Origin: Lachnospiraceae bacterium
GTDB lineage: Bacteria > Bacillota > Clostridia > Lachnospirales > Lachnospiraceae
Reading direction: 5' to 3'
Assembly (NCBI GenBank): GCA_021204285.1
Contig: JAJPZP010000118.1
Coordinates: 1-10,656, forward strand
Length of the DNA: 10,656 bases
The translations under genes were made by a program, and so were the position numbers. The notes beneath the pieces are model-generated. The model was not told where the DNA came from. It made no database searches and saw only the letters and a program-made list of their open reading frames with translations. Shown one piece after another: positions 3,003-9,910 of the stretch; positions within the stretch are counted from its first letter, which is position 1, and each line of letters begins with the position of its first letter.

Positions 3003-3170
3003 CAAAGGGACGCGGTTCCCGACCGATATATGCATTCGGACTCGCTTTCGCTCAGGGGGAGGACGCAGCGGTACTAGGCTCAATCTTCGCTTTCAGCTCG
3101 ATTTCGCCAAGAACCGGTGCCTCCCCGATGGTCCGTATGCATATATCGGTCGGGGAACGCTATGCTATGG
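3003..3170 (+). repeat. Structured 168-bp repeat element, copy 1
   Basis: This element begins with CAAAGGGACGCG and ends with CGCTATGCTATGG. It is a long imperfect palindrome: 3018-3035 pairs with 3137-3154 (18 bp), then after one T-T mismatch 3037-3041 pairs with 3131-3135, then GGGGAGG (3056-3062) with CCTCCCC (3120-3126), then CGGT (3069-3072) with ACCG (3113-3116), and an inner GGC..AATC/GATT..GCC stem around 3077-3108. An asymmetric loop (3042-3055) on the left side holds CGCTTTCGCTCAG. A second copy lies inverted at 3380-3547. It has no convincing protein-coding content. It could be a non-autonomous mobile element (MITE-like) or a structured RNA; it starts 30 bp after the aminotransferase stop. 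Confidence 0.75.
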
Positions 3171-3346
3171 CCGATGTACAAGTGTCTGTAAAACACTACT
3201 TCTACATTCAAAAATCCAACAAGTCCATATAAAAGCATCCGATGCAAACACATCTTCTCGGATGTTGCATATTATGGCGAACAGACAGATGACAATATGG
3301 CAGATGACCCTGACTCCTGATTTCTATAGCAATTAAACCAAAGGCT
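3171..3346. other. Non-coding spacer between the inverted repeats, with small hairpins
   Basis: No gene is supported here. AGTGT (3181-3185) pairs with ACACT (3193-3197). CATCCGA (3236-3242) can pair with TCGGATG (3258-3264), and ATGCAA (3242-3247) with TTGCAT (3265-3270); these two stems interleave, giving a possible pseudoknot or alternative folds. A 20-codon open frame from ATG 3274 to TAA 3336 (MANRQMTIWQMTLTPDFYSN) has no ribosome-binding site. GACTCCT (3312-3318) pairs with AGGAGTC (3362-3368) in the next repeat unit. The string TATGGC occurs twice here and also at the repeat-unit junctions, which suggests the spacer belongs to the repeat cluster. Confidence 0.5.
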
Positions 3347-3379
3347 TATAGCGTAGCGGAAAGGAGTCCTGCCATTAGA
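3347..3379 (-). repeat. Short tandem unit sharing the element's end motifs
   Basis: Read on the minus strand, this 33-bp unit starts with TAATGGCAGGAC and ends with CCGCTACGCTATA, the same end motif as the 168-bp copy that adjoins it. It looks like a remnant whose interior has been lost, or a minimal unit of the same repeat family. Confidence 0.45.
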
Positions 3380-3547
3380 CATAGCGTAGCGCCCCTGCCG
3401 GCATGTACATACGGACCATTGGGGAGGCGTCGGTTCTTAGTGAAGTCAAGCCGTCAGGCGCAGACTGAACTTAGAACCGCTACGTCCTCCCCCTGAGCGA
3501 GAGCGGGTCCGAATGTACATACCGGCAAAGGGACGCGTCCCTTTGCC
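3380..3547 (-). repeat. Structured 168-bp repeat element, copy 2 (inverted)
   Basis: On the minus strand it runs from GGCAAAGGGACGCG to CGCTACGCTATG and matches copy 1 in two blocks: one with CGGAC, the CGCT-TCGCTCAG loop and GGGGGAGGACG; the other with AAGAACCG, GCCTCCCC and ATGGTCCG. Stems are 3397-3410 with 3513-3526 (14 bp, one wobble), 3412-3417 with 3506-3511, GGGGAGG (3421-3427) with CCTCCCC (3486-3492), and CGGTTCT with AGAACCG. The outer and inner stem sequences differ from copy 1 but still pair. The right end contains a perfect 24-bp palindrome (3524-3547). The element ends 57 bp from the stop of the DUF815 gene, which is transcribed towards it. Confidence 0.75.
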
Positions 3548-3587
3548 ATAGTATAGCGGTAGCCGACAGCCGCGTCTCTTTGCCATA
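3548..3587 (-). repeat. Short 40-bp unit with both element ends and no interior
   Basis: On the minus strand it begins TATGGCAAAGAGACGCG, nearly identical to the start of copy 2, and ends CCGCTATACTAT, like its other end, with only about 10 bp between. It directly abuts copy 2, so the two are in tandem. It is best read as an internal deletion derivative or a minimal unit of the same family. Confidence 0.5.
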
Positions 3588-5868: not shown

Positions 5869-7035
5869 ATGAAACAGCGGATGATCGAGAAGTTTGAGGA
5901 AATCTACGGAAAGGGCGGCGAAGTCAGCGTCTACTTCGCGCCGGGACGGGCAAACCTGATCGGGGAGCATACGGACTATAATGGAGGACATATCTTTGCC
6001 TGTACACTGACGGCGGGAACCTACGCGGCGGCGAGAAAGCGTCCGGACAATCGTTTCCGTTTCTGTTCGCTGAACTACCCGGAAAGCGGCATCCTGGACC
6101 GCGCCGGCGACGAGCTTGATTACCGGGAGGAGGATAACTGGGGAAATTATCCGAAGGGAGTCATCCGTACTTTCATCGCGAAGGGCTATCCGGTGGAGGG
6201 TGGACTGGACCTGCTGTATTACGGTGAGATTCCGAAGGGGCTGGGCATCGGCTCTTCTGCCGCGATCAATGTGGCGACCGGACTGATTCTGCGCGACCTG
6301 ATGGGTCTTGAGAATGTGACAAAGATCGATATCGCGCTGTTCAGCGCATTGGCGGAGGGAGAATACATGAAGAATGGCGGCGGAATTCTTGATCCTTTTA
6401 CCGTTGCGATGGGAAAGAAGGATCACGCGATTCTGCTCGATACGAGCGATTTCTCCTACAGCTATGCGCCGCTCGATCTGCCGCACGAGAAGGTGATCAT
6501 TACGAACAGCGGAAAGGCCAGAGAGGGTCTGGTGGAACGCACGCTCGAGCGCAGGCGCGAGTGCGACCAGGCGCTGCGGGAGCTGCAACGGGTGATTGCG
6601 ATCAACAATCTCTGTGAACTGACCGCGGAAGTTTTTGAACAGGTGCAGGAGATGATCAAGAGTCCGGTTCGTGTGCGCAGAGCGCGCCATGTTGTGACGG
6701 AAAACCAGCGGACCCGGCAGGCAGTGGAGGCGATGAAGAGGGGCGATATCCGGGAATTTGGTCAGCTCATGAACGCTTCGCATCTGTCGCTGAAGGAGGA
6801 CCATGAGGTGTCCTGTGAGGAGCTGGATGTTCTGGTGGAGGAGGCCTGGGAACTTGACGGCGTCATCGGTTCCCGTATGATGGGAGCCGGATATGGCGGC
6901 TGTACCATCAGCATCGTCGATGAGGACTCCGTCAGTGAATTTATCGAGAAAGTCGGGACAAATTATACCCGGCGGACGGGCCGCCGGGCAGAGTTCTATG
7001 TGGTAGAGACAGGTGACGGAGCTACAAGACTGTAG
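5869..7035 (+). CDS. galK: Galactokinase (divergent GHMP kinase)
   Basis: The 388-aa product phosphorylates galactose at C1 with ATP, the first committed step of the Leloir pathway. Length and layout are those of galactokinase. The N-terminal sugar-binding signature PGRANLIGEHTDYNGG (residues 25-40) is intact, the GHMP ATP motif is GLGIGSSAA (124-132), the catalytic aspartate is probably D175 in GGGILDPF, and the C-terminal glycine motif is GAGYGGC (339-345). The stretch HVVTENQRT (274-282) is also galactokinase-like. Two motifs differ from the usual GLSSSAS and CGIMDQF, so sugar specificity could be altered. ATG 5869 has GGGAG (5856-5860) 8 bp upstream. No galT or galE is in the window. The gene converges on fkp, overlaps it by 14 bp, and its stop codon lies in the terminator stem at 7018-7044. 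Confidence 0.88.
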   Translation: MKQRMIEKFEEIYGKGGEVSVYFAPGRANLIGEHTDYNGGHIFACTLTAGTYAAARKRPDNRFRFCSLNYPESGILDRAGDELDYREEDNWGNYPKGVIRTFIAKGYPVEGGLDLLYYGEIPKGLGIGSSAAINVATGLILRDLMGLENVTKIDIALFSALAEGEYMKNGGGILDPFTVAMGKKDHAILLDTSDFSYSYAPLDLPHEKVIITNSGKAREGLVERTLERRRECDQALRELQRVIAINNLCELTAEVFEQVQEMIKSPVRVRRARHVVTENQRTRQAVEAMKRGDIREFGQLMNASHLSLKEDHEVSCEELDVLVEEAWELDGVIGSRMMGAGYGGCTISIVDEDSVSEFIEKVGTNYTRRTGRRAEFYVVETGDGATRL

Positions 7036-7044
7036 CTCCTTTTT
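7018..7044 (+). terminator. Intrinsic terminator spanning the ends of galK and fkp
   Basis: GGAGCTACA (7018-7026) pairs perfectly with TGTAGCTCC (7031-7039) around the loop AGAC and is followed by five T (7040-7044), a classic rightward terminator. The galK TAG (7033-7035) is in the right arm and the fkp TAG (minus strand, 7024-7022) in the left arm. On the minus strand the hairpin lacks a T-tract, so it should terminate galK and only fold as a 3'-end hairpin in fkp mRNA. Confidence 0.85.
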
Positions 7045-9910
7045 CTATCCGGCTCTCCCAGACAGAGACGCCGCTGTCCTGGAAGACGTCGCGCAGCCGC
7101 TTCCGGAGCGCTTCCTTTGATACTCCGCGGCGGAGCACCACCTGCAGGAAACCGCCGCCGCCCGCGCCGCAGATCATCTTTCCGGCGATCAGATCATCGA
7201 TGGACAGCAGAATCTGGTCGATACAGAGATTCGTGCAGCCTGCGTCCAGCTTCTTCGAGAGTTCCCAGTGCTCGCTGAGCAGCCGGGCGAAGCCGTCCAC
7301 ATTTCCTTTTTCCAGTTCAAAACGCATCAGTACCGCCGAGCGCTGAATATCATAGAGCGCTTCAAGGCTGTCCGGATTATTTCCAATATAGCGGCCGGTC
7401 ACTTCGCGCAGCAGATTTCGCGCAAGCCTTCGCTGACCGGTGTAGATCAGGCAGAAACGGTCGTTCAGTTCCGCCAGCGTCTCATCGGAAATCCGGAGCG
7501 GTGTGCACGCGATCTCCTGCTTCAGGCCGACATGGGATGTGACCATTTTGACACCGGGAGCGAGGCCGCCGACCTGATCCTGCCAGCCGCCGCCCGTTGA
7601 CATGAGCTGCTCCATACACAGGACGCGGTTGTAGAGTTCATTCTGCGTAGCTTCCATGCCGAGAATATCATAGAGTCCCTTGACGCAGGCGCCGGCCAGG
7701 ATCGAGCTGGTGCCAAGACCGGAGCCCTTCGGGATGTCGATGACCCTCGTGTTGAAATACAGGCCGCCGCCGAGCCGTTCGCAGATCGCCTCCACAGGAA
7801 TTCCCTCCTGCAGGGGAATGAGACCGCAGACAATCAGCGCCGCCTTGTGGAGGGCAAAGGCGTCATGCGGATTCCGGCAGTCCTGCAGTTCTCTCACATC
7901 GGTAAACTCCCGGTAGGAGCCAATGTCGGTTGAGGTGAGGACAATTCTGCGCTCCGGGATCTTTTTCAGCGTCACTTCGATCGGCAGTCTCCCATCGAAG
8001 GAGAGCGCGGCGTTCAGCACCGTGCCGCCGTGCTCCATGCAGTAGGGCGGGGTGTCGCTCCAGCCGCCGCCCCAGTTGACGCGGACGGGCAGGCGTGTGA
8101 CAGTCTGTTCCTTCATCAGCCGCAGCTCCGGCCGGTAATGAGTTCCGGCGATCGCAGCGTTCAGGACGCTCGCGGAAATGGTGCCAAAGCATTTTTCTGC
8201 AAGCCGCTGAGCGGCGTCCCTGTCCGTGACAAGACGTGACAGGTAGTAGTAGATACGTATTTTGCGGCTGAACTGTTCCGGAATATTTTCATCCATCCGG
8301 TCCGCTTCCTGCACGAGATAGCGCTCAATCCGCGGCGTCACCTCGATGTGAACCTTCTCCACCCAGGTACCGTCGTCGATTGCCTGTAAAATACTCTCGG
8401 CCCGCACTTTGTCCAGCAGTTTCTCCTGCCAGGGCAGGATCGCGGTCACATCCGCGCGGCGGAAACTGTCGCTGAGACTGGTCATCTCGTCAGCGGGCGT
8501 TCGTGAAAGCGCTTTTGCTACGGCCTCCTCAATGGTATCACAGACCGGGCAGACCGGCGCGGTCCAGAGTGGCTGATCCAGCGGTTCCCCGAACAGACGG
8601 TTTTCTTTGGGATTGTCTCCAACGCCGTACATGCGGACGGCAAAACGCCCGTCTTCGAGCTTCAGTCCATGCAGAACGGTACCGTCCGGTACCGTTTCTC
8701 CGTTCAGTGTCACACCGGAGAGAATGCAGCTGCGTCCGACCCTGCTGCCGTGGTGGATATAACAGTCCTCAATGTAGCTGCCTTCCGCGACAAAGGCCCG
8801 GCGGCTGATGTAGCTGTTGCTGACGGCATAGGGTGTATCTGTCGTGTTGGAATTTACATTTCCGGACCAGCTGAGGAAGCGGTATTTTCCGAGGTCGGCC
8901 ATCATCATGCGCAGCAGCTCCTGTGTGGTTCCGAAGTGAATAAAAGACGCGGGCGACATACGGATCAGACGCATGCGGAACGGGTGCAGCGCCTCCCAGA
9001 GCGCGGCACGGCAAGCGCGCAGCTGCGGGGTAAAATCGCCTTCCGGCTGTTCCAGGTAGAACTGTTCCAGCGAGGAACTGCTTGCCAGCGGGTAGAGAAA
9101 GTCCGCATAGAAGGAGAGCCGGGCATCCTCGTTGATATATTCTTCCGGATGGTCCTTTACCAGTTCATACAGGGCCATCAAAAGTTCTCTGTCAAGAATC
9201 ACGGCGCCGGTATCAATGTCAACTTTTCCGGAAGCGTCCACAGCGCCGAGCTCCTGCAGCTTCTGTGCGCTTTGTTTGTGTAGAAAATGCCCGACGTTCC
9301 CTTCTTCATCGCGTGTGTAGACGCCGTGATTTTTCCCGGTTTCCACATCCTCCTTGATCGAGAGGGCGGCAGCACCGCGGGAATAAAAATCAATCTGAAG
9401 TGCGTTGAACAGGAGCAGTACATCTCCGGAACAGACGAGCATTCCTTCGCTGATCCGCGGCGCGACGGTACTCATGCCGATCATGAATTCGTCGAACAGC
9501 GTGGAGCGCCGTCCATCCGGCAGCAGCCGCGGTACCGGTGAGAACAGCTTGCCACAGGCGGAATACTGCGGAATCCGCTTACTGTCGCCGCCGGAGTGGA
9601 TGACGAGAATCCGCCTGCCGTCCAGCGCTTCCCGCCGGCATACATAGAGCAGCGCGTTCAGCGTCGCGCCGCCGCTGCCGACCCTTTTCCCGCCCGGATC
9701 CGGAAGAACTGCAAAGTGTGTCGTCTCCGGGAGCTGGTGAAGACGTTTCCGATAGGAAATCTGCTCTTCGTAGGCACGGGCCTGCGCCTCATTTGAGGCG
9801 GTCAGTATGACATAATCCCAGGCGGTTGCCCGTCCGGCGAGCACCTGCTGGTAATTTTCGAGGGCGTCATTATAGGACTGCTGCTCAAACAGTGTAGTAT
9901 AATCCGTCAT
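7022..9910 (-). CDS. fkp: Bifunctional L-fucokinase / fucose-1-phosphate guanylyltransferase
   Basis: The 962-aa product closely matches the layout of Bacteroides fragilis Fkp (about 950 aa), which makes GDP-L-fucose from free L-fucose by the salvage route. The N-terminal half is the GDP-fucose pyrophosphorylase: PDPGGKRVGSGGATLNAL (residues 70-87) is the nucleotide-binding loop and HSGGDSKRIPQYS (105-117) a fucose-pyrophosphorylase motif. A hexapeptide-like stretch (about 360-420) suggests a left-handed beta-helix. The C-terminal part is a GHMP fucokinase with RVNWGGGWSD (610-619), the ATP loop PKGSGLGTSS (727-736) and GAGGGGF (915-921). ATG 9910 follows GGAGG and AAGGAA sites. The gene has its own promoter, diverges from rpiB and converges on galK. 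GDP-fucose normally feeds fucosyltransferases for capsule or glycoprotein, none of which is seen here. Confidence 0.92.
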   Translation of the reverse strand: MTDYTTLFEQQSYNDALENYQQVLAGRATAWDYVILTASNEAQARAYEEQISYRKRLHQLPETTHFAVLPDPGGKRVGSGGATLNALLYVCRREALDGRRILVIHSGGDSKRIPQYSACGKLFSPVPRLLPDGRRSTLFDEFMIGMSTVAPRISEGMLVCSGDVLLLFNALQIDFYSRGAAALSIKEDVETGKNHGVYTRDEEGNVGHFLHKQSAQKLQELGAVDASGKVDIDTGAVILDRELLMALYELVKDHPEEYINEDARLSFYADFLYPLASSSSLEQFYLEQPEGDFTPQLRACRAALWEALHPFRMRLIRMSPASFIHFGTTQELLRMMMADLGKYRFLSWSGNVNSNTTDTPYAVSNSYISRRAFVAEGSYIEDCYIHHGSRVGRSCILSGVTLNGETVPDGTVLHGLKLEDGRFAVRMYGVGDNPKENRLFGEPLDQPLWTAPVCPVCDTIEEAVAKALSRTPADEMTSLSDSFRRADVTAILPWQEKLLDKVRAESILQAIDDGTWVEKVHIEVTPRIERYLVQEADRMDENIPEQFSRKIRIYYYLSRLVTDRDAAQRLAEKCFGTISASVLNAAIAGTHYRPELRLMKEQTVTRLPVRVNWGGGWSDTPPYCMEHGGTVLNAALSFDGRLPIEVTLKKIPERRIVLTSTDIGSYREFTDVRELQDCRNPHDAFALHKAALIVCGLIPLQEGIPVEAICERLGGGLYFNTRVIDIPKGSGLGTSSILAGACVKGLYDILGMEATQNELYNRVLCMEQLMSTGGGWQDQVGGLAPGVKMVTSHVGLKQEIACTPLRISDETLAELNDRFCLIYTGQRRLARNLLREVTGRYIGNNPDSLEALYDIQRSAVLMRFELEKGNVDGFARLLSEHWELSKKLDAGCTNLCIDQILLSIDDLIAGKMICGAGGGGFLQVVLRRGVSKEALRKRLRDVFQDSGVSVWESRIEKGATVL

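Follow-up and report, generated by a model that had tools for sequence, protein, structure and literature searches.

A short, gene-less repeat that folds around a conserved three-way-junction core is dispersed through genomes of the Lachnospiraceae. That much we hold firmly. The reading that we prefer, and consider likely, is that this is a MITE-like, non-autonomous repeat of the family, built from one or two units of a structured domain that is probably selected as RNA. One such element lies in the window discussed here, that is, in the whole stretch of DNA that was analyzed (10,656 nucleotides, contig C10 of a 2.19-Mb genome assembled in 272 contigs and 88.5% complete).

A composite element between two genes

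The element in the window covers 543 bp (3003..3545). It is bounded by a plus-strand gene for an aspartate aminotransferase (PF12897) and by a minus-strand gene for a DUF815 ATPase. Its parts are these.

3003..3545, no strand: whole composite element, from terminal repeat to terminal repeat; an orthologous composite element stands at the same locus in genome G010
3003..3014, plus strand: left terminal inverted repeat, CAAAGGGACGCG; likewise at the left end in G010
3016..3156, sense minus: structured domain, copy 1 (outer stem, three-way junction, inner arm, mini-hairpin); model match 140.9 bits, this copy being among the ten sequences used to build the model
3044..3051, minus strand: mini-hairpin GC-GAAA-GC of copy 1, read from the sequence; a GNRA alignment column
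3157..3390, no strand: 234-nt spacer, with the 5' side of a sense domain on either flank
3391..3532, sense plus: structured domain, copy 2; model match 138.2 bits, this copy being likewise among the ten
3497..3504, plus strand: mini-hairpin GC-GAGA-GC of copy 2, read from the sequence; a GNRA alignment column
3524..3547, no strand: perfect palindrome of 24 bp at the right end, in which the terminal repeat is joined to an inverted copy beside it
3534..3545, minus strand: right terminal inverted repeat, the exact reverse complement of the left; likewise at the right end in G010

The first-pass annotation had described two separate elements here. The two copies are where it placed them, 78% identical over 167/168 bases; their stems follow in the same order, and their outer stems, unlike one another in sequence, each pair with themselves, as it had said. 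What it took for two elements are halves of one, oppositely oriented copies of a single domain enclosed by a perfect 12-bp terminal inverted repeat. On their sense strands, the two halves point away from the spacer, each with its 3' side toward an end of the element.

The strand that it had read is also not the informative one. The informative strand is the opposite (minus in copy 1, plus in copy 2), because there the small loop is GNRA and G.U outnumbers A.C. A loop that reads CGCTYNCGCT in the earlier orientation reads AGC-GNRA-GCG on the opposite strand. A mismatch that had been given as T-T in one copy and A-A in the other turns out to be an effect of strand; in one orientation it is T.T in both (A.A on the RNA-sense strand).

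No target-site duplication was seen by eye at this element. A simple scan found no promoter-like or terminator-like site in the spacer, and no promoter-like site in the window element or in one doublet from genome G005. One terminator-like site lies just outside the element, at 3556-3573. The 24-bp palindrome was not seen in G010 at this locus.

Two side observations belong here. Beyond the element, at 3569-3587, the right end occurs once more by itself (CCGCGTCTCTTTGCCATA), perhaps as a decayed neighbor. Farther along, the product of 7022-9910 (minus strand) combines a fucose pyrophosphorylase domain with a GHMP kinase domain (PF07959, PF00288), and a galactokinase-like gene at 5869-7032 (plus strand) adjoins it.

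Fold, conserved core and covariation

The domain is a three-way junction of about 141 nt that joins a long, variable outer stem, a conserved inner arm and a GC-GNRA-GC mini-hairpin. The outer stem ends inward in a conserved GGAC/GUCC step; together these have a median of 32 pairs (range 19-38, from minimum-energy folds of 85 copies). The junction strands are AUYG and CUGA, and most copies have GA internal loops in the inner arm. In some distant members the tip of the arm is plain, though the mini-hairpin is retained. The GNRA loop, the junction strands and these internal loops stay unpaired and are conserved in one strand sense. Judged by alignment column, the GNRA loop is present in all rows of alignments A5 (61/61), A6 (34/34), A7 (21/21) and A4 (85/85), which overlap and whose rows were collected by a model trained on such loops. 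Folding of the window copies beats 200 of 200 shuffles in each case (z of -7.7 for copy 1 and -8.1 for copy 2).

The proposal of the first-pass annotation that changes in the stems keep pairing is borne out by the alignments. A5 comprises 61 distinct copies from 7 genera, being matches at E <= 1e-6 from 39 chosen loci. Here, in an alignment fitted to the model, a procedure that favors pairing, two-sided changes are found in 40 of 45 pairs and in 821 cells, compared with 231 ± 16 cells after shuffling; 95.3% of the cells are paired, compared with 65.6% when shuffled and 34-43% when slid, and none of 500 shuffles reaches what is observed. Covariation is seen in the inner-arm pairs too, not just in the outer stem. 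Ten copies from the window's own genome, aligned with MAFFT, have two-sided changes in 30 of 45 pairs and in 80 cells (shuffles, 21 ± 4), the structure in this case being taken from the very alignment that was tested. Within single genomes, two-sided cells number 143 in G005 (shuffled, 53) and 21 in G242 (shuffled, 7.5).

The first-pass annotation had not recognized the element and had suggested a search of Rfam. The whole of Rfam 15 (4227 models) gives no match: none reaches its gathering score in the window, where only chance-level matches at E <= 10 fall near the element, and none reaches E <= 1 in six further loci. HEARO and Clostridiales-1, which had been named as candidates, are presumably among these 4227 families.

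By itself, the inner arm (CTTARYGA..GARYTTAG, with its GA internal loops) also matches outside the big hairpin, at loci L104, L105, L052, L053 and L054, perhaps as a relative of the arm that stands free. In L104 (G000:C88, 1017-1124, minus strand), the match consists of two tandem hairpins after an apparent stop codon. In L105 (G000:C121) it lies at 1063-1105 on the plus strand; a stretch there that looked tRNA-like by eye was not called by ARAGORN. Three single copies, L152 (G011:C64), L168 (1843-2058, G016:C1) and L188 (1216-1450, G010:C16), give model matches 216-235 nt long rather than about 141. The extra 75 nt or so of L152 sit in the inner arm.

Distribution of copies

Further copies in related genomes, whose absence the first-pass annotation had named as a refutation, were found with covariance models. 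In the window's own genome, model R1 matches 19 times, in 12 places, with E no higher than 1.3e-9, ten of these matches having trained the model. Among relatives, matches at E <= 0.01 occur in 20 of 61 genomes and in 11 of 45 genera; for four of those 20 (G017, G026, G029 and G035), the best match covers the inner part only. Up to 53 candidates per genome were scored, a ceiling that two genomes reached. No match was found in 24 genomes from other families of the order. Even within the window's genus, the distribution is patchy. Matches occur in 10 of 17 genomes and are absent from seven, and copy number runs from none to at least 53.

In a wider sample of the same family, model R2 detects the domain at E <= 1e-5 in 124 of 299 genera, with 10 candidates scored per genome. 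A sample of the phylum has it in 5 of 398 genomes: the window's own, three others of the family, and G695, which belongs to another class and is the only one from outside the family. G695 holds at least eight strong copies (L325, for example), all eight of the candidates scored being matches; its copies reflect either horizontal transfer or a misplaced genome. The core pattern was found as well in 19 stretches of metagenome-assembled genomes assigned to Lachnospiraceae, Clostridiales or Eubacteriales. Collections of plasmids and phages gave no match. One pattern match on a viral contig has no hairpin and reads as chance.

Mobility and the ends of the element

The first-pass annotation had set selected structure against a transposon. 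The half of its argument that concerned structure stands, with stems that covary, unpaired sequence that is conserved and copies dispersed in large number. The other half, the contrast with a decayed transposon, is not supported, given terminal inverted repeats, presence and absence at one site within the genus, and target duplications of about 10 bp in genome G242.

The site in question is the window locus itself. A doublet stands there in G000 and G010, and one half, with an insertion, in G011. No copy stands there in G001, G002, G005, G006, G013 or G016, although the gap lies between the aminotransferase and DUF815 genes; by eye, several of these gaps contain other coding sequence. Seven further genomes of the genus (G012 is not one of them) have no hairpin at the locus.

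Movement leaves its clearest traces in G242, where a single domain sits inside a MITE-like element of about 265 bp with 15-bp ends, CACGGTAAACGCAWG. The pattern of these ends occurs 109 times, compared with 3 for a reversed control. Among 13 two-ended elements, 10 have flanks that match at 9 or more of 10 positions, 6 of them perfectly, although one of the ten matches does not adjoin the ends; for mispaired flanks, the count is 2 of 156. Three derivatives of 189 bp have one deletion of the core in common and different flank repeats (9, 10 and 9 of 10). Copies that lacked the core have therefore moved, and the structured core is probably not the transposition signal.

Genome G005 offers doublets instead. 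It has at least 37 near-full-length doublets of about 430 bp, counting the query, the others being 85-91% identical (40 of 109 candidates scored), and 14 of 20 fetched loci are doublets. Their ends have only a short GGACGCY in common, and no target duplication was found in the flanks of the 14. MITE-like movement is well supported in G242, as are, elsewhere, the site polymorphism and the ends; the case for mobility of the doublets, without visible target duplications, is weaker.

A transposase that recognizes the terminal repeats would move, or would once have moved, the element in trans. No autonomous relative with matching ends was found in the loci examined (G005, G242, G016:C25, G032:C52 and G032:C156). 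In G242, the ends in the fetched loci (about a third of the 109 sites) belong to the gene-less MITE, and no autonomous partner turned up. Three gaps had been considered as autonomous copies. The 2.3 kb between separate copies in G032:C156 contains what is by eye a CTP synthase-like gene, and the gaps in G016:C25 and G032:C52 have no transposase-sized open reading frame.

G242 also has a second family of long-stem hairpins (L314-L317 and L319), which starts with CAGGGGACGCAAG and has the ACGCAAG end letters of the MITE; no matching second end was found for it.

Arrangement and neighboring genes

When two copies lie within 900 nt of each other, they are mostly arranged as in the window. The order minus-plus was found at 33 distinct places, plus-plus at 4, minus-minus at 3 and plus-minus at none (85 hairpins plus added genome matches, three G005 doublets, with orthologous places counted separately).

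The element is short, has no coding capacity and is dispersed between genes. That intergenic position is partly by construction, because open reading frames were called mechanically and any that shared more than 60 nt with a hairpin were discarded. A tally of the flanking genes at 56 loci from six species gives 32 codirectional pairs, 8 convergent and 6 divergent ones, and 10 not assignable; it is rough, since it scores the window locus in G010 as codirectional, whereas the genes in the window converge. Where a single copy lies between codirectional genes, it follows their sense in 11 cases and runs against it in 5. In 75 loci, no gene recurs beside the hairpins except for two groups common to 3 genera, one an unannotated frame and the other, by eye, an ABC-type ATPase. 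Many copies have been inherited at equal sites in 5-6 species.

How pairing is kept

The mismatches in recently amplified copies lean strongly in one direction. For G005 (33 distinct copies), G.U to A.C is 14:0, with 38 other mismatches, mostly in two columns; for G242 (18 distinct copies), it is 12:1, with 3 others. Combined, these sets give 26 to 1, counts made inside single genomes, of course, coming from related copies and not from independent events. Over A5, the ratio is 86:23, with 103 others. A triplet in mid-stem varies in G242 together with the matching arm; among 15 unique copies, pairing is perfect in 10, includes G.U in 4 and has T.T in 1. The bias in the recent sets suggests that the sense strand is under selection, in the simplest case as RNA. 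Selection on one DNA strand is compatible with it as well, because G.T also beats A.C in DNA.

Comparison of orthologs gives a different picture. Here, 35 comparisons at 16 loci were made, using 51 of the 85 hairpins in 16 groups hand-picked from 128 ortholog pairs; each hairpin was compared with a single reference for its group, and the set excludes second paralogs, ungrouped copies and any row with an insertion or N. Of 274 changed pairs, 156 are altered on both sides, at a difference of 9.5% in the flanks and 12.8% in unpaired columns. Single changes comprise 43 that give GU, 42 that give AC and 30 others, with no excess of G.U. For the outer stem, 20 comparisons differ by 0-0.17 and 15 by 0.25-0.69, as counted without gaps, a count that is inflated by any indel common to both arms (as in the L095 group). 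Transitions and transversions among the two-sided changes stand at 45:40 in the outer stem and at 45:7 in the inner arm. The most striking case is copy 2 of the window compared with its counterpart in G010. The core is 96% identical, while 69% of the letters of the outer stem differ when aligned ungapped (33-38% gapped), and the replacement stem in G010 is again self-paired.

This pattern is hard to obtain by stepwise selection alone; templating between the arms or recombination probably contributes. The excess of two-sided changes fits arm templating or recombination at the level of DNA at least as well as it fits stepwise selection on RNA. The missing excess of G.U among these long-resident orthologous copies is the main result against a simple RNA version.

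Alternative explanations

It is worth asking, then, whether pairing might be maintained in DNA altogether. Template switching or conversion between the arms of a palindrome would keep the stems paired, and the element would otherwise be an ordinary mobile or decayed repeat with no function as RNA. The orthologs speak for this, with their 156 of 274 pairs changed on both sides in so little flank divergence and their single changes without a G.U excess, as does the G010 stem replaced around a 96% identical core. Such a view must, however, contend with unpaired parts (the GNRA loop, the junction strands, the GA internal loops) that are conserved in one strand sense, with the 26:1 ratio of G.U to A.C in recently amplified copies, and with covariation that extends to the inner-arm pairs. 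We judge it unlikely.

Two other accounts appear to us very unlikely. One would have an IS200/IS605-type Y1 transposase recognize the hairpins as single-stranded DNA, in the manner of REPINs, with the inverted doublet as the moving unit. The doublets do have a fixed orientation, as do REP dimers (PMC3733652), and part of the copies from the window's genus have, by eye, a GTAG or similar box 5' of the stem. Against this, the Y1_Tnp domain of RAYTs (PF01797) is not associated with copies, being found in 10 of 20 genomes that have them and in 21 of 41 that do not; it was not found in the window's own genome (88.5% complete) or in G010, G011, G013, G018 and G033. REPs are also 20-40 bp long, against a domain of 141 nt. 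Finally, elements in G242 have terminal repeats and target duplications. To our knowledge, Y1 elements make no target duplications. The other account, which we hold to be just as improbable, takes the domain as a free-standing functional RNA gene, or a cis-regulator of neighboring genes, multiplied by duplication. Covariation of riboswitch grade, a conserved core and the inheritance of many copies at equal sites in 5-6 species are what it would lead one to expect. It sits poorly with the lack of a recurrent neighbor in 75 loci beyond the two groups in 3 genera, with an orientation to genes that is inconsistent (11 against 5 for single copies between codirectional genes), with the failure to find a promoter or terminator in the scanned elements (the window and one G005 doublet), with a copy number that varies from none to at least 53 within a genus, and, again, with the terminal repeats and target duplications of G242.

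What the domain might do

Under the preferred reading of a MITE-like repeat, action of the fold as RNA is favored. Selection would act on the domain in its folded, single-stranded form, most likely as RNA within intergenic transcripts that read through it. Transcription of the copies is an assumption here, because a simple scan found no promoter-like site. The most likely job would be to act in cis on such transcripts, and not in transposition itself. A long duplex free of sequence constraint, joined to a specific core, would serve as a platform for processing or for the docking of proteins, and might make an insertion tolerable or alter the fate of an mRNA.

A bolder version is possible, and we offer it tentatively. 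The fold (three-way junction, GNRA mini-hairpin, GA-rich inner arm) would in this case be a new class of folded RNA, carried by the element as functional cargo that processes or protects read-through transcripts. The RNA would be selected while the element spreads, its outer duplex being free in sequence and turned over by concerted double changes. If true, this would make the element a bacterial counterpart of SINEs that bear structured RNA.

Whichever applies, at one locus in sister species both arms change in concert around a nearly unchanged core. Selection on RNA and templating between DNA arms thereby become directly testable against each other. There is also a warning in this, that covariation of riboswitch grade is possible in a mobile repeat.

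Comparison with known systems

Neither the element nor its fold was found in Rfam 15 or in the open-licence literature, a scope that leaves most subscription papers outside. It would be a structured repeat of the Lachnospiraceae that is very widespread and so far undescribed. HEARO and other Rfam RNAs are structured RNAs tied to mobile elements, a likeness shared here; the present element differs in having no Rfam match and no linked open reading frame. Among bacterial MITEs and small palindromic mobile repeats, ERIC, RUP and NEMIS are familiar. Two others, RU-1 (127 bp) and RU-2 (168 bp), are small repeats of enterobacteria (PMC2759123). Like the Lachnospiraceae element, MITEs such as these are short, gene-less and intergenic, with terminal inverted repeats and many foldable copies. 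What sets the element apart from them is a three-way-junction core, a GNRA mini-hairpin, strongly compensating stems and a build of one or two units.

REPs and REPINs (PMC3733652, PMC3116915) are likewise palindromic intergenic units that occur as singlets, inverted doublets and larger groups, unevenly among species. Here, the unit is 141 nt rather than 20-40 bp, has a complex core and no association with Y1, and comes with target duplications in G242. The REP/REPIN feature of a 20-40 bp unit with a GTAG or CGTC tag is not matched by a domain of 141 model positions.

Another point of comparison is MRSC-65-2, described in PMC11109978 as a single long stem in which a UYCCGG repeat is conserved, and found in diverse phyla. 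Like the other mobile or repeat candidates there, it has dozens of copies per genome and a long covarying stem, and the level of action, RNA or DNA, is left undecided, all of which holds here as well. UYCCGG is absent from both window copies, and none of the 61 rows of A5 has two. The motif of the present element may be among the 3161 candidate RNAs reported in PMC8040213. The kind is already known, from MITEs, from REPINs and from the mobile or repeat sequence candidates of PMC11109978; compared with MRSC-65-2 as described there, the present element has a three-way junction and is almost confined to one family.
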